Virus record (IMG/VR): IMGVR_UViG_3300008259_000501
Location: 1 to 31,113 of that record
Strand: one strand, 5' to 3'
Length of the DNA: 31,113 nucleotides
Source: a virus
A program made the translations under genes and the position numbers. Positions 1-25,554 of the stretch are shown piece after piece; position 1 is the stretch's first letter, and each line of letters starts with the position of its first letter. The notes beneath the pieces are model-generated. The model was not told where the DNA came from and searched no databases. It was given only the letters and a program-made list of their open reading frames with translations.

Positions 1-893
1 TTGTTACGCTCAGATATATACAGTCCTAAAGAGACTGATACATCCATTGGTAAGCCTGACATACTACCAGACACATCACATACAGGAAGAATCCTTTCTG
101 TGCAGTCAGTCATATAATCAGGCATAGCATACCACTGTGCTTCCACTGCGTCAGCGTTATCACCAGCACAAATTGCTTGATACAATTGGTGAGGAAACAA
201 TACTGAGGCATTGATCTTAGCATCACCCGATTTCACATCGGTGATATACTGAGTCATCCGGTCACCATCATGCTTGAAGAACGCGTTACGATAACGGTTC
301 ATGGCAATAGATGGAACTTTGGAATACTCAATGCTAGACCAGTCACGGTTGCACATCTGAGTTTCTACTACGCGGGTCATTTCCACAAGCATCTGACGAA
401 ACTCTTTAGGAGATTTCTTCATGTACTTATGCATGGCGCTAAACCATGGACCTCTGCGCGGAAACCATTTGGCTAGAAGATTCTTGTTCTCAGATTCTTC
501 AAGCTGATACATCAACCAATTAAGGTTGTTGTCATCAGGCTTTTCAATCAAGAACACATCTTTCCAGTAGCCAAACACAGGCGTGTGGATCATAAGCTGA
601 TCGGCTACTTCAGGATATGTAGCAACAATGTGCTTCATAACTATCTGAAAGAACCTACGCTCTCCTGCTCCACCTCGGGCATCACGAGACCAGAATAAAA
701 TCTTGGCCGCTAACTGTTTATCCTGAGCAAACGCTCTTTCAAATACAGTTATGATGTCCTTCTCAGGCATGTTTCTGCTAGCTCCCGCCAGGAAAAACAT
801 ATCAACGCAATAATCTAACGATGTAGAGTGTGTTACTGCGTTGTTTGCTGTCACGGCATTATAGCTGCGTGTTGCATTTACAAGTCTACTCAT
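1..893 (-). CDS. DUF2828/TROVE-like vWA protein (3' truncated by window edge)
   Basis: The minus strand is open from an ATG at 893 to the window edge, giving 297 residues and no stop. The N-terminal half is alpha-helical and carries the signatures DARGGAGERR and FGYWKDVFLI, which I associate with DUF2828, a relative of the TROVE/Ro60 RNA-binding fold. A von Willebrand A domain begins near residue 268 with a full MIDAS motif DVSGSMSG (D273, S275, S277), followed by PMDVSVSLGLYISE. Ro-type proteins bind small structured RNAs and take part in RNA quality control, and some phages carry them. The leader is AT-rich with no Shine-Dalgarno. The 1.08 kb upstream is a dense stem-loop region. The vWA call is firm from the motif. 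The DUF2828/TROVE relationship is from remembered family signatures, and RNA binding by this protein is inferred. Confidence 0.8.
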   Translation of the reverse strand, partial: MSRLVNATRSYNAVTANNAVTHSTSLDYCVDMFFLAGASRNMPEKDIITVFERAFAQDKQLAAKILFWSRDARGGAGERRFFQIVMKHIVATYPEVADQLMIHTPVFGYWKDVFLIEKPDDNNLNWLMYQLEESENKNLLAKWFPRRGPWFSAMHKYMKKSPKEFRQMLVEMTRVVETQMCNRDWSSIEYSKVPSIAMNRYRNAFFKHDGDRMTQYITDVKSGDAKINASVLFPHQLYQAICAGDNADAVEAQWYAMPDYMTDCTERILPVCDVSGSMSGLPMDVSVSLGLYISERN

Positions 894-940
894 AGTCTTT
901 GTGGTTTAATTGGTTAATAAATATCTTACTCCTCTGCACT

Positions 941-1049
941 CAATTGTAAATACCTTCCCTACGTCTAGGTCCGGGGACGTCATCCTACGAGATTACACCT
1001 AGCGACTTAATTGTCTAGCGGTTACCGTTTTTTTTGATATTTACAATTG
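941..1049 (-). ncRNA. 109-nt closed RNA element upstream of vWA gene; Y-RNA-like candidate
   Basis: The two ends form a perfect 12-bp stem (CAATTGTAAATA at 941-952 with TATTTACAATTG at 1038-1049). Inside are shorter helices: acgtc/gacgt at 961-965/975-979, the palindrome CGGTTACCG near 1020-1028, and CTAG repeats that can pair. Y RNAs are roughly 100-nt RNAs closed by a terminal helix and are often encoded beside Ro genes; this element has that size and position. I do not see a canonical tRNA-like T-loop as in bacterial YrlA RNAs, so the family link is speculative. It could instead be a structured 5' leader of the vWA gene. Strand is taken from the flanking genes. Confidence 0.4.
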
Positions 1050-1085
1050 CTCACCCTTGGAAAGTGAGTTGTGGTGCATTAATAA

Positions 1086-1176
1086 GGGAGAACCCACCGC
1101 CTTTTACAGGCAGTGGGGTTTTGATGACTACAGGATACGGTACCCACTACACGCTACTAAGCGAGCAGGTTCTCCC
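1086..1176 (-). ncRNA. 91-nt closed RNA element, unidentified
   Basis: GGGAGAACC (1086-1094) pairs perfectly with GGTTCTCCC (1168-1176). Near the 5' edge on the plus strand is a second hairpin, 1093-1101 with 1109-1117, which is fully paired only on the minus strand, where the mismatch becomes U-G. A short CGCT/AGCG hairpin lies at about 1152-1163. The size resembles a long-variable-arm tRNA, but no TTCRA T-loop or anticodon arm is visible, so I do not call a tRNA. Confidence 0.35.
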
Positions 1177-1601
1177 GGGTTTTGCCTTTCGGCCTCTAGT
1201 TTATAGTTTGTAGAGTTGCTGATGTATCCTTTGCATCATTTTCTGGTTCCGTTTTTTTCTTTTATAGCATAGAAGTTTAATTGCGGATGGAACCATTGTG
1301 TTTTGAGTGTGTGGGTAAGGAGAACTATCATATAAACCTTACACCACATTTTACACTCAGTATCTGCTAGTTCAGTACTTGTTTACTTTCTTCAACAAGT
1401 TCACAGGCCTAGCAACCTGACAGGATTCACTCGAACGGTGTATATCCTATTAACTTCATGCAGTGCAGACACAAATATAATAACTATTTGTGTTTCGTCC
1501 TATAAGGACTCATCAGTACACTTTTATATTGTAGGAACAGCCAGTCTAACCATCACCACTGATAGTTAACTGACTGCCCCCATATTTTTTCATGGTGATT
1601 T

Positions 1602-1644
1602 AAAAGGGCAGAGCGCGCATTAAATAGCTAGCTCTGCCTTTTTT
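1602..1644. terminator. Rho-independent terminator, possibly bidirectional
   Basis: An 8-bp perfect stem GGCAGAGC/GCTCTGCC (1607-1614/1631-1638) with a 16-nt loop is followed on the plus strand by six T. On the minus strand it is followed by CCTTTTAAAT. The plus-strand T run is the better one, although the neighbouring genes are minus-strand. It may instead be one helix of the larger structured region. Confidence 0.5.
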
Positions 1645-1974
1645 GGAATTGTTTCAGCTCTCAGGCACTCACTGGTGTCCTTTCCTGAGTCGTAACTTAG
1701 GTTGCATTAAGCTCAACGGACTGAATACCGTCTGTTGCAAAATGTACTTGTCTATTACCGACATCCGATTCCCTCAACGTTCTCGGCGCCGAGTTTACGT
1801 ATATACTTTTTTGAATGTTTAACTGGTTTCTCAAGCTAACCTGCCTATAGCTTAATAAGAATCTTTAAAAGTTCTTGCCCATAATGTGATAGGAGGAATA
1901 TGCTACGATTCTTTTTTTGTATTGCTTGTGCTTTTTCAAAACTTTTAGAGGATCTGTGGCCTCTCTTCCTTAAC

Positions 1975-14186: not shown

Positions 14187-15776
14187 ATGGGATCTATACT
14201 ACTAATGGGAGCTGGTCTTCAGACTACAGTAACTGGACCAACTTATGACCCAGATGCTCAACTATTCTTTAATGCTGAAAGTGCAGCAGGAGTAACTCTT
14301 ACTACTACTCAAAAAGATGCAGTTAATCAATGGGTAGTAGATAGCAAAGCAGCTAATATTTGGACTAAATTTAAAGCTATTTATCCAATGGTAGGTGGAA
14401 CTGCAACCTCTCATAAATTCAACCTTAAAAATCCTTTAGATACCAATGCTGCATTTAGATTAGCTTTTAACGGTGGATGGACACATAGTTCCAATGGTGC
14501 TTTACCAAATGGTACAAATGCTTATGCAAGTACATTCTTAATACCAAATACTGTTTTTGGTAGTGGTTATGCAGCTATTGGTATTTATATAAACCAAGCC
14601 TTAACAGTCGGTGGGGCAAGACCTATGGGTTCAACAAATATGGATATTTTGGTAAATACTACTTTTGTTAGGGGTGCAAATAAGGCTTCTACAAATACAA
14701 CTGTTACTGCTACGCTATCTATGGATGGTTTTATTGTAAATTCAAGAGTAGGTGCAGCAGATACTTACATAATGAATAGAAATAGAACATTTGTATCAAG
14801 TGCAACAACAGCAGTAGCTACTTATGCAACAACAGATATTGTTTTAGGTGCAACTAATAGTAATGGCACAATAGGTAGTTATTCAACAGGGAATATTGCA
14901 TTTGCTTTTTGTAGTGATTTTCTAACACAAAATGAATCTTTATTGCTTTATCAAATTACAGAAAAATACCAAGTAGCTTTAAGTAGAAGTATATATCCTG
15001 CTCAATCTTTTTATTACAATCCTGCATACAACAATGAAACTAATGCTTTCTTATTTAGTACACAGATAACAGATACTACTATTCAAACTGCTACTAATAC
15101 TTTAGTTAGTGATTTAAAGACTGCTAATATCTTTACTAAGATGAAAGCTATCTACCCTATGGTTGGTGGAACTGCTACTACTTGTAAGTTTAATTTAGTT
15201 AATGCACAAGATACTAATGAAGCATTTAGATTAGTGTTTAGTGGTGGTGGTACGTTTAGTGCAAATGGATATTTACCAAATGGTACAAATGCTTTTGCAA
15301 ATACTTTTTTAAATCCATCAACCCAATTAACAGCAACATCAACTCATTTAAGTTACTATTCAAGAACTGCAACTCCAGTTGGTGCAACTATAGAAATTGG
15401 TGTTAGTAATGGAGGTGCAAGTTATCTTCATTTAAGAGCTGCTGCTAATTTTATAGCAGGAAGCACCACTGTAATAGTACCTTTTACATCAACACTTAAT
15501 GCTCAAGGTTTTTGGGTAGGTAGTAAAAGAAGTAATACTGATAGAGAAGTTTATAAAAATGGAATTTCAGAAACAACCTCAGTTGTAAGTGATACAGCAG
15601 CCTATGTTAATGTTAATATGTATTTAGGTGCTGGAAATATGTTGGGTACTACAGCTAATTATTCAAATAAACAATGTGCTTTTGCATCAATAGGAGATGG
15701 ATTAACAGATGCAGAAGCCTTAGCACTATACAATGCAGTTAATGCCTTCCAAGTAACCTTAGCTAGAAATGTTTAA
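14187..15776 (+). CDS. Large tail-associated protein with internal tandem duplication
   Basis: A 529-residue protein made of two similar ~240-residue halves after a short leader. WTKFKAIYPMVGGTATSHKF, LDTNAAFRLAFNGGWTHSSN and LPNGTNAYASTF in the first recur as FTKMKAIYPMVGGTATTCKF, DTNEAFRLVFSGGGTFSANG and LPNGTNAFANTF in the second. The pattern (YxPMVGGTA..KFNL) plus beta-rich remainder suggests two lectin/LamG-like domains, often used by gut and aquatic Bacteroidota phages for glycan binding. Four nucleotides separate it from the previous stop. Receptor binding is inferred; family not certain. Confidence 0.7.
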   Translation: MGSILLMGAGLQTTVTGPTYDPDAQLFFNAESAAGVTLTTTQKDAVNQWVVDSKAANIWTKFKAIYPMVGGTATSHKFNLKNPLDTNAAFRLAFNGGWTHSSNGALPNGTNAYASTFLIPNTVFGSGYAAIGIYINQALTVGGARPMGSTNMDILVNTTFVRGANKASTNTTVTATLSMDGFIVNSRVGAADTYIMNRNRTFVSSATTAVATYATTDIVLGATNSNGTIGSYSTGNIAFAFCSDFLTQNESLLLYQITEKYQVALSRSIYPAQSFYYNPAYNNETNAFLFSTQITDTTIQTATNTLVSDLKTANIFTKMKAIYPMVGGTATTCKFNLVNAQDTNEAFRLVFSGGGTFSANGYLPNGTNAFANTFLNPSTQLTATSTHLSYYSRTATPVGATIEIGVSNGGASYLHLRAAANFIAGSTTVIVPFTSTLNAQGFWVGSKRSNTDREVYKNGISETTSVVSDTAAYVNVNMYLGAGNMLGTTANYSNKQCAFASIGDGLTDAEALALYNAVNAFQVTLARNV

Positions 15777-22640: not shown

Positions 22641-25424
22641 ATGAAAGTATTAAACGCAATGCAACTTAAGGCTGGTGCCAAATCTGAAACTAACCGTATG
22701 GGTAGTATCACACAGCCTGTTCAATTTCTTCCACGTGATGAGAAAGATGCTGAATGGACAGCCTGGAATCTTGACTGGTTAGAGTGGAATGGTTTAAAAC
22801 AGATCCGCCGTAATGCGCGCCGGCTTATGAAAAACTATAAGCTTGCTAAAGGAGTTATTGACAAAGCTGATTACATTGTTGAAGATGACAATGAGATGAG
22901 AGACTTAGTTGAAACTCTTATCCAAGAAGATACTACAGCTTTAGAACTTAAGTTTTATCCTATTATTCCTAATGTGGTTAACGTGCTTGTATCTGAGTTT
23001 GCTAAAAGAAATACTAAGGCAACCTTCCGCGGGGTTGATGAGTTTACTTATAATGAGCAGCTAGAAGAAAAACGTAAACAAGTAGAAGATGTTTTATTTG
23101 CAAAAGCTGAGCAAAAGTTATTAGCTCAGATGCTTGAACAAGGAATGGATATGAATGATCCACAAATGCAAGAGCAAATGCAACAACAAATGAATCCTGA
23201 AAATCTTAAGACTCTTCCTGAGATACAAAATTACTTTGATAAAGATTACAGGAGCATGTGTGAGCAATGGGCTGCTCATCAGATGAAAGTTGATGAGGAA
23301 AGATTTAGAATGGATGAACTTGAGGAAAGAGCTTTTAGAGATATGCTTATTACCGATAGAGAGTTCTGGCACATGCGCATGATGGAAGATGATTATGATG
23401 TTGAGCTTTGGAATCCAGTAACTACTTTTTATCACAAGTCACCAGAAGCAAGGTACATTTCTCAAGGTAACTGGGTTGGCCGTATTGATATGATGACTAT
23501 CTCTGATGTAATTGACAAGTACGGTTACATGATGACCCAAGAACAACTAGAATCTATTGAAGCAATTTATCCAGTAAGATCTGCAGGTTATCCATTACAA
23601 GGATATCAGAATGATGGTTCTTACTATGATGCTACAAAAAATCATGATTGGAACGTTAATATGCCTGGTTTAGCTTACCGTCAATACACTTCAATGTGGG
23701 ATAATTCTATTGCTCCCGGAGGAGACATTATCAACTGGATCATGGCTGAAGGAGAAGACTATGCTCCGATGGGAGCTGCCTTTTTGCTCCGTGTTACAAC
23801 AGCTTACTGGAAGTCTCAACGTAAGGTAGGACATCTTACTAAGATTACTGAAAACGGAGAGACCATTGTAGACATCATTGATGAAAGTTACAAAATAGTT
23901 GATAAGCCTGTGTACAATACACGGTTAATGCAAAACAAAACTAAAGATAATCTTGTCTTTGGAGAACACATTGATTGGATCTGGATTAATGAAGTATGGG
24001 GCGGTATTAAAATTGGCCCTAATCATCCTTCCTTCTGGGGTATGAATAACCCAGGTGGTATTAATCCAATGTACTTAGGTATTGATAGCAACACAATTAG
24101 ACCATTAAAGTTTCAGTTCAAAGGAGATAAAACTTTGTATGGCTGTAAACTTCCTGTAGAAGGAGCTGTATTCTCTGATCGTAATACTAGATCAACAGCA
24201 ATGGTTGACTTAATGAAGCCTTTCCAAATTGGATACAACATTGTTAATAACCAGATAGCTGATATCTTAGTAGATGAATTAGGTACTGTGATTCTGTTAG
24301 ATCAGAATGCTTTGCCAAGACATTCTATGAATGAAGACTGGGGTAAGAACAACTTGGCCAAAGCCTATGTTGCAATGAAGAACTTCCAGATGTTACCGTT
24401 GGATACATCCATCACTAACACTGAAAATGCACTTAACTTCCAACACTTCCAGACATTAAATCTTGAGCAAACAAATCGTATGATGTCCAGGATTCAAATG
24501 GCTAATTATTTTAAACAACAATGTTTTGAGGTGATAGGTATCACACCTCAACGTCTGGGTCAGCAAATAGGTCAAACAGAGACCGCTAAAGGTATTGAAC
24601 AGGCTGTAACCGGTTCGTACGCCCAGACGGAAACTTACTTCATGCAACACTGTGATTATTTGATGCCACGCGTACATCAGATGAGAACTGACTTAGCGCA
24701 GTTTTATCATTCCTCAAAACCATCATTACGCTTGCAGTATATCACAAGCACTGATGAGAAAGTTAACTTTGAGATGAACGGTACTGACTTATTACTGAGA
24801 GATCTTAATATCTTCTGTACAACAAAGGCCAACCAGAGAGCAATACTTGAACAGATGAAACAAATGGTTATTGGCAACAATACTACAGGAGCAACAATCT
24901 TTGACCTAGGTAATGTTATGCAGGCTGAATCCTTAGCTGAGGTTAATCATGTATTAAAAGAAACTGATAGAAAAGCTCAAGCTCAACGTCAGGAACAAAT
25001 GCAGCATGAACAGCAAATGGCTGAACAAGCTAATCAAACAGCATTGCAACAAAAACAAATGGAGATTGATGCCGATATGCGTAAAGAAGAAATGCGTAAC
25101 AGAACCACATTGCTTGCTGCTGAAATTAAGTCTGCAGGTTATGGAGCTATGCAAGATATGAATGCTAACAAGCAGTCTGATTTTATTGATGCTATGAAGG
25201 ATATCAAGAGCTCAAATGAGTTTGAACAAACTATGAACTTTGAACAAGGTAAAGAGAGAACTAAACAATCTTTAAATGCAGATAAAAATAATATCTCTAG
25301 AGAGAAAATGCAAACTCAATTAGCCATGAAGCAGATGGATGTTAACATAGCAAAAGAGAATAAGAACCAGTTTGACCTAAAAAAGAAGGCTCAGGAAAAT
25401 AGCAAAAACAACAAGAAAAAGTAA
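22641..25424 (+). CDS. Portal protein
   Basis: A 927-residue protein directly after TerL, the usual place for the portal. Residues ~1-120 contain DEKDAEWTAWNLDWLEWNGL and helices typical of portal wings. A long acidic/Gln-rich insertion (EQMQQQMNPENLKTLPEIQN, about 165-200) follows, and a central part has PVTTFYHKSPEARYISQGNW and MIVNNQIAD-like stem helices (FQIGYNIVNNQIADILVDEL). The last ~150 residues are a Gln/Lys-rich coiled coil (QAQRQEQMQHEQQMAEQANQ). Such 800-950-residue portals with a long C-terminal helical barrel are typical of crAss-like phages. It forms the dodecameric DNA gate. Family call from context and architecture. Confidence 0.8.
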   Translation: MKVLNAMQLKAGAKSETNRMGSITQPVQFLPRDEKDAEWTAWNLDWLEWNGLKQIRRNARRLMKNYKLAKGVIDKADYIVEDDNEMRDLVETLIQEDTTALELKFYPIIPNVVNVLVSEFAKRNTKATFRGVDEFTYNEQLEEKRKQVEDVLFAKAEQKLLAQMLEQGMDMNDPQMQEQMQQQMNPENLKTLPEIQNYFDKDYRSMCEQWAAHQMKVDEERFRMDELEERAFRDMLITDREFWHMRMMEDDYDVELWNPVTTFYHKSPEARYISQGNWVGRIDMMTISDVIDKYGYMMTQEQLESIEAIYPVRSAGYPLQGYQNDGSYYDATKNHDWNVNMPGLAYRQYTSMWDNSIAPGGDIINWIMAEGEDYAPMGAAFLLRVTTAYWKSQRKVGHLTKITENGETIVDIIDESYKIVDKPVYNTRLMQNKTKDNLVFGEHIDWIWINEVWGGIKIGPNHPSFWGMNNPGGINPMYLGIDSNTIRPLKFQFKGDKTLYGCKLPVEGAVFSDRNTRSTAMVDLMKPFQIGYNIVNNQIADILVDELGTVILLDQNALPRHSMNEDWGKNNLAKAYVAMKNFQMLPLDTSITNTENALNFQHFQTLNLEQTNRMMSRIQMANYFKQQCFEVIGITPQRLGQQIGQTETAKGIEQAVTGSYAQTETYFMQHCDYLMPRVHQMRTDLAQFYHSSKPSLRLQYITSTDEKVNFEMNGTDLLLRDLNIFCTTKANQRAILEQMKQMVIGNNTTGATIFDLGNVMQAESLAEVNHVLKETDRKAQAQRQEQMQHEQQMAEQANQTALQQKQMEIDADMRKEEMRNRTTLLAAEIKSAGYGAMQDMNANKQSDFIDAMKDIKSSNEFEQTMNFEQGKERTKQSLNADKNNISREKMQTQLAMKQMDVNIAKENKNQFDLKKKAQENSKNNKKK

Positions 25425-25554
25425 AACTAGCGTTATAATGCAGAAAAACTTTATAGACCTGAAAAAAAAGTCAAATTTATAAAGTTTATTTGTATAATTT
25501 TGTTATATTAAGTATATGACCGTCAGTCAAAAATAACCAACAAAAAATAAAAAG
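25425..25554 (+). promoter_or_regulatory. AT-rich gap before the capsid module; possible promoter
   Basis: A 130-bp gap without a gene. It contains GTTTATTTGTATAATTTTG around 25484-25502, similar to the -7 boxes of the other promoters here, but no TTG lies at the right distance, so a promoter is possible, not shown. The sequence GTCAGTCAAAAATAACCAAC (25522-25541) precedes the next gene and has a close copy before 28548. Confidence 0.35.

Follow-up and report, generated by a model that had tools for sequence, protein, structure and literature searches.

The stretch of DNA analysed here (the window, 31,113 bases) is a fragment of a virus according to its record entry, and no tRNA gene is present anywhere on the contig. 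Its left end carries a gene of the DUF2828 family, preceded on the same strand by a series of RNA domains and a ribozyme core. The following features were assigned:

3-893, minus strand: DUF2828/Ro60-fold gene with TROVE-like helical repeats and a vWA MIDAS (Pfam, PHROG and the AlphaFold2 model of a relative)
934-1078, minus strand: E2 domain, TGCACC..hairpin..CAATTGTAAATA ... TATTTACAATTGAGTGCAG (complementary helix and conserved hairpin)
1080-1243, minus strand: M1b, the core, a large pseudoknotted CAGCA module (22-sequence alignment, covariation)
1243-1294, minus strand: M1a, a small stem-CAGCA module in the variant CCGCA (match of covariance model R1)
1419-1457, minus strand: hairpin domain D1, immediately behind the predicted cut (compensatory changes across relatives)
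1462-1522, minus strand: hammerhead ribozyme with stem I open, predicted to cleave at 1468/1467 (core, three stems, minimum-free-energy fold, relatives)
1602-1643, no strand assigned: bidirectional terminator-like inverted repeat (arms 1602-1614/1631-1643 with 92 % complementarity, T-rich sequence at either side)

The DUF2828 protein and its fold

The DUF2828 gene starts with the ATG at 893 and is truncated because the contig ends within it; the window holds 297 of the about 461 residues found in full-length relatives. Its product matches Pfam DUF2828 (1.3e-35) and phrog_850, annotated as "RNA-binding protein" (1e-79). The vWA MIDAS that the original prediction had read from the sequence together with DUF2828 signatures is present as DVSGSMSG, in agreement with the DxSxS pattern of vWA domains, and its residues D273, S275, and S277 are invariant among relatives. 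The relationship of DUF2828 to TROVE and Ro60, which had also been proposed, was recovered in a structural model but not at the sequence level: no Pfam match to TROVE was obtained for the protein, none of the Ro60 entries in the PDB was found by sequence, and the vWA_Ro60 profile reached just E 0.12, in one relative.

An AlphaFold2 model was made of the full-length relative L022, which is 71 % identical to the part of the protein in the window (19 sequences; pLDDT 83.9). Foldseek against the PDB placed Ro60 (1yvr and 9nfa) and Rsr of Deinococcus (2nvo) as the top three, with vWA-type matches ranking lower. Using VIA-align, a Z of 20.5 over 404 residues was obtained with Ro60 (2i91), against at most 11.8 with vWA-only structures. 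The Ro60 protein of Thermus phage phiLo (PDB 9l5y) shares the fold (Z 14.8 over 389 residues), although the DUF2828 profile does not detect it by sequence. Ro60 ranks first across both domains of the model, the TROVE helical-repeat ring and the vWA domain, and the full-length relative, as modelled, has the complete Ro60 fold. DUF2828 is, on the strength of this model, a diverged Ro60-fold family, diverged because the sequence profiles miss Ro60.

Of 50,697 phage records, more than 650 contain a member of the family, among them phages of Escherichia, Mycobacterium, Vibrio, Listeria, Staphylococcus, and Campylobacter. A mycobacteriophage member, LeBron gp53, is toxic when overexpressed (PMC13148394), and TROVE proteins of jumbo phages have earlier been noted as RNA-repair platforms (PMC7824862). 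In the relative L004 (position 7110), the DUF2828 gene is broken inside the conserved IISDMEF motif, for which an intron is a possible cause. In several relatives (L009:2302-2340, L011, L013, L022:7387-7425, and others) the stop codon of the DUF2828 gene is directly followed by an H-type pseudoknot, GGAGGT-TGGTGAC-ACCTTGGCAACAGAA-GTCACC, which is conserved, covaries as judged by eye, and is often succeeded by a T-run; it is possibly a terminator or a 3' stabiliser. Weak matches to alpha-tmRNA at the end of the DUF2828 gene were judged to stem from this kind of pseudoknot, with GGCAACAGAA, and not from a tmRNA.

Structured RNA and ribozyme upstream of the gene

The stretch of about 1.08 kb upstream of the gene had been described as free of genes and rich in stem-loops. 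It indeed contains no ATG-started ORF above 37 amino acids (894-1974), and comparison of relatives indicates that it contains a real RNA, on the minus strand, from about 1522 to 934. Conservation is confined to about 934-1522; in 1542-1974 no match and no conserved RNA was found among the relatives compared. The inverted repeat at 1602-1643, which was not called in a scan for consensus terminators, is a possible upstream limit of the transcript. No excess of sigma-70-type promoters was seen in 880-2850. Another gene-free stretch, some 500 nt long, lies at 2308-2816; Rfam gave no match there, the folding energy is not unusual, and neither a match nor a conserved RNA was found among the relatives compared.

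The evidence for the RNA consists of covariation and conservation, since folding energy departs even further from expectation in the neighbouring coding sequence. The RNA region has a z of -5.5 relative to shuffles, and the 5' part of the DUF2828 coding sequence (245-893, minus strand) folds far better than its dinucleotide shuffles, with a z of -6.7; folding z-scores were for that reason dropped as evidence. Covariation was found in the homologous upstream regions of related phages, as the original prediction had required. In M1b, helix P2 (1229-1224/1138-1133) is interleaved with helix b (1176-1168/1094-1086), and in a MAFFT alignment of 22 sequences 99.7 % of the cells of P2 and b are paired, with 40 double changes as opposed to 9.7 in shuffles. 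The outer helix P1 (1238-1234/1126-1122) also displays compensatory changes. Hairpin D1 has the exchanges GGA/TCC, GGG/CCC, GCC/GGC, GAG/CTC, and GCA/TGC across relatives, and the hairpin of E2 is conserved with compensatory changes. Two closed elements of 109 and 91 nt, considered earlier to have the size of Y RNAs, both exist, the former as a perfect 12-bp helix in E2 (941-952/1038-1049, 100 % complementary) and the latter as a 9-bp helix (1086-1094/1168-1176) with strong covariation in relatives. They are, however, helices inside larger domains and not separate RNAs.

Two parts of the region had been overlooked in the original prediction: the module that generalises to other phages, which is treated below, and a hammerhead at 1522-1462. 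The latter reads, on the minus strand, AGUGUA-CUGAUGA-GUCC..GGAC-GAAA-stem III-GUC/UGCACU, the stroke marking the predicted cut. The catalytic core is complete (CUGAUGA...GAAA...GUC), with a UH cleavage site and three helices, and the minimum-free-energy fold of 1522-1462 is the exact hammerhead three-way junction (z -2.8). An Rfam scan of the window at gathering score gave no match: the RAGATH-1 hammerhead (RF03152) reached 31.7 bits (E 0.026; gathering score 56.3) and hammerhead type III 26.4 bits (gathering score 48.5). As the gathering score, a curators' threshold and not a structural feature, was missed in both cases, the element is named a hammerhead by its anatomy and not a member of RAGATH-1 or type III. 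A hammerhead occupies the same spot in five relatives' loci (L002, L003, L004, L034, and L103, of which L003 and L004 are closely related), and the six aligned loci, with that of the window, share the core and show compensated variation in the stems. The front end of the RNA thus looks to be self-cleaved, as predicted from sequence, by a built-in hammerhead.

In two other relatives a Pistol ribozyme (RF02679) is located at the same place, before the same hairpin D1, with scores of 42.8 (L022) and 51.1 bits (L126) at a cut-off of 34.5. D1 is almost identical in L103, which has the hammerhead, and in L126, which has Pistol. Because either ribozyme precedes the same conserved hairpin, a plausible reading is that one ribozyme was replaced by another at a conserved 5' end. 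The loci described here resemble other phage loci with these ribozymes in the complete hammerhead core of the window and in Pistol scores above the gathering score in two relatives; they differ in that two unrelated ribozymes take one position, at the start of a conserved RNA linked to a Ro60-like gene. Hammerhead-pattern matches were also seen in sequences that lack a DUF2828 gene (L154-L160 and L162), for the most part a short distance upstream of other phage ORFs; L157 has two such matches and L162 one, followed by a tRNA-like sequence.

The stem-CAGCA module and its association with DUF2828 genes

A recurring unit, stem-NN(N)CAGCA-loop-stem'-UG, was found upstream of divergent DUF2828 genes (38-72 % identity), most DUF2828 loci having one to four copies in its strict form. 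Near the DUF2828 gene, 69 strict modules were counted in 39.8 kb (1.73 per kb), as compared to 53 in 509 kb elsewhere (0.10 per kb) and to 1.8 in shuffled upstream regions; a looser test, having a background of 35 %, is less informative than this count. In the near-complete genomes of three relatives, clustered modules are present only at the DUF2828 gene, and isolated motif-like matches elsewhere are at the level of shuffled sequence. Pattern matches in sequences that lack a DUF2828 gene (L028, L031-L033, and others) were judged to be due to chance, the rest of the core being absent; an exception among them is L052, which has a true core and ends just before the gene. Weak matches below the cut-off to Dictyostelium Class I RNA (L009:474-529 and L015:5294-5344) apparently arise from the stem and a UACAGCAA motif and are probably convergent.

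A covariance model, R1, was built from 23 modules selected for having the stem, and its covariation score was reached by none of 500 shuffles. Its best match in the window is M1a (about 1294-1242; 23.7 bits, E 0.01), and 18 close relatives have 30 matches between them, every one upstream of the gene and on its strand. Scores within the clade are partly circular, as the training modules were chosen for having the stem; the fair test consists of four phages outside the training set and of controls lacking DUF2828. The former gave E-values of 1e-4 (Vibrio phage PG216), 1.1e-4 (Escherichia phage Alf5), 8.4e-4 (Cronobacter phage S13), and 3.7e-5 (LR756501, 735 kb), each match being located inside a tRNA cluster, whereas none of the seven phages without a DUF2828 match had an R1 match below 0.37, which is chance level. 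The presumed connection between RNA and protein is borne out to the extent that the module tracks the protein across phages: 18 of the 19 DUF2828 phages, these four among them, have R1 matches at E<=1, and in most cases the match adjoins the gene or falls in a tRNA cluster. Staphylococcus phage S-CoN_Ph13 (OR354836.1), the record of which has two DUF2828 places, carries the same module pair twice, at 14790-14926 and 23391-23527, in opposite orientation and with equal scores.

The main rival reading is that of a cis-regulatory leader. The RNA would then be the 5' UTR of the DUF2828 mRNA, to which the protein or another ligand binds to control the mRNA's own translation, with the ribozyme only trimming the mRNA to a stable 5'-OH end. 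A purely cis role is possible because in the window clade the RNA and the 5' leader of the mRNA overlap; in most relatives of this clade the core starts 160-195 nt before the ATG, a nearly fixed distance, complementary strands around P4 could switch, and phage hammerheads elsewhere are likewise found just before ORF starts. The modules are not merely mRNA leaders, however, as they lie downstream of the DUF2828 gene in Mycobacterium and Staphylococcus phages. In L012 and L014 a small ORF separates the core from the gene, and in PG216, S13, and LR756501, three of the four non-training phages, the best module is kilobases away from the gene, in a tRNA cluster. A role confined to the leader is rather unlikely in the light of these arrangements.

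Many DUF2828 genes sit among tRNA genes, as do many of the modules, which could accordingly be elements of tRNA clusters (signals for processing, decoys, or mobile repeats) that accompany DUF2828 genes only because both reside in tRNA regions. Two relatives even have tRNA-shaped RNAs in which a CAGCA hairpin replaces the anticodon arm (L103, 2541-2655, and L136, 2699-2815), neither of which was called as a tRNA gene. Yet on the contig of the window, devoid of tRNA genes, the module adjoins the gene, while T4, whose genome carries tRNA genes in a cluster, lacks a DUF2828 match and matches the module at chance level only (E 0.88), and such co-travelling is regarded as quite improbable. A DNA-level or chance structure, such as a replication or packaging signal or an effect of composition, would fit a folding energy that does not surpass that of the adjacent coding sequence and is hardly credible, given that covariation and complete ribozyme cores are seen on one strand in divergent phages.

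Relation to Ro60-Y RNA particles and proposed role

Bacterial Ro60-Y RNA systems have been described, with function studied mainly in Deinococcus (PMC7790460). The locus in the window shares with Ro60/Rsr ribonucleoproteins (Rsr-Y RNA-PNPase of Deinococcus and the rsr-yrlBA-rtcBA operon of Salmonella) the protein fold and, as is the case for bacterial Y RNAs, an RNA that is encoded beside the gene of the protein. The likeness extends in some phage loci to tRNA genes and an RtcB-like ligase, which is located a few genes from the DUF2828 gene in a Listeria phage; no RtcB or RNA ligase was found in the contigs of the relatives. The locus differs in that DUF2828 has no sequence-level TROVE match and the RNA no match to YrlA (RF02553; a permuted tRNA domain and a Ro-binding stem). 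Identity of the window RNA with YrlA was rejected, as the Rfam model matched neither the window nor the surroundings of the gene in relatives. The repeated stem-CAGCA modules and the predicted ribozyme-made 5' end of the RNA described here have no counterpart in that model. The tRNA-shaped RNAs of L103 and L136 resemble YrlA in that the latter also has a tRNA-like part, which is present in its Rfam consensus. This is resemblance and not membership, the RNA of L103 scoring only 19.4 bits with the YrlA model.

Y RNAs have been suspected in phages before. Those of mycobacteriophages (Chen et al. 2014) are cited in a study on Listeria phage CKA15 (PMC12282133). According to this study, three regions that appear to be non-coding and lie up to 2 kb upstream of the homologous gene rank with the most transcribed; their RNAs are suggested to be Y RNAs, and the homologous protein is present in purified virions. 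The most transcribed non-coding region of the phage is 26,236-26,727 (PMC12282133), the only one of the three with coordinates given. It is distinct from the module cluster of CKA15 at 25,289-25,550 and contains no stem-CAGCA module. Near its 3' end, the region (26,236-26,727 in L150) reads TGATGCACGAAGTAG, resembling the start of D1. The suspected phage Y RNAs and the RNA described here have in common a Ro-like phage gene of the same protein family and an abundant non-coding RNA nearby; the passages of PMC12282133 that were consulted present neither an RNA motif in common nor a covariation model. Because Ro60 proteins of phages and candidate phage Y RNAs have already been published, the novelty is limited to the ribozyme-defined 5' end and the shared stem-CAGCA module, which, as far as could be checked, were undescribed before.

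In conclusion, the computational results support a Ro60-type protein, a structured RNA, a ribozyme core, and a linkage between module and protein. The locus is, with a probability of roughly 0.68, that of a phage Ro60-type ribonucleoprotein with a Y-RNA-like partner RNA, processed by a ribozyme in the window clade. The original prediction of a Ro/Y-RNA-like locus thereby stands as regards DUF2828, the Ro60 fold, covariation upstream, and a module tracking the protein, but not in respect of YrlA, a sequence-level match to TROVE or Ro60, or the 109- and 91-nt elements as Y RNAs.

We infer a ring-shaped TROVE-like/vWA protein that would bind a partner RNA encoded immediately upstream on the same strand. 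In the cell, the transcript of the window clade would cut itself by its hammerhead, or by Pistol in some relatives, leaving an RNA that would start at position 1467 with a 5'-OH end and be released from the mRNA. Its domains, in order, would be the D1 hairpin, the small stem-CAGCA module, the larger pseudoknotted one, and a last domain. The stem-CAGCA modules are putative docking sites for the Ro60-like ring, with the remainder serving as scaffold or gate. The complex may act on phage or host RNA during infection, with tRNA and other structured RNAs as the targets of surveillance, repair, or decay.

A broader proposal is made more tentatively: stem-CAGCA RNAs might be the general partner of the phage Ro60 superfamily (DUF2828), an unrecognised class of RNA in most phages with the protein. 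In the window clade, arrays of such RNAs released by ribozymes would have evolved, and in some phages the modules would have been fused into tRNA-shaped RNAs, so that phages would possess their own RNA quality-control particle, maybe carried in the virion. One locus here joins a Ro60-like protein and a phage ribozyme, which leads to the prediction that the ribozyme sets the 5' end of the Ro60-bound RNA. The stem-CAGCA module offers a testable candidate RNA partner for a family present in phages of common laboratory hosts, and its occurrence in the genome of nearly every tested phage with the protein suggests a widespread, little-studied RNA-protein machine of phages.
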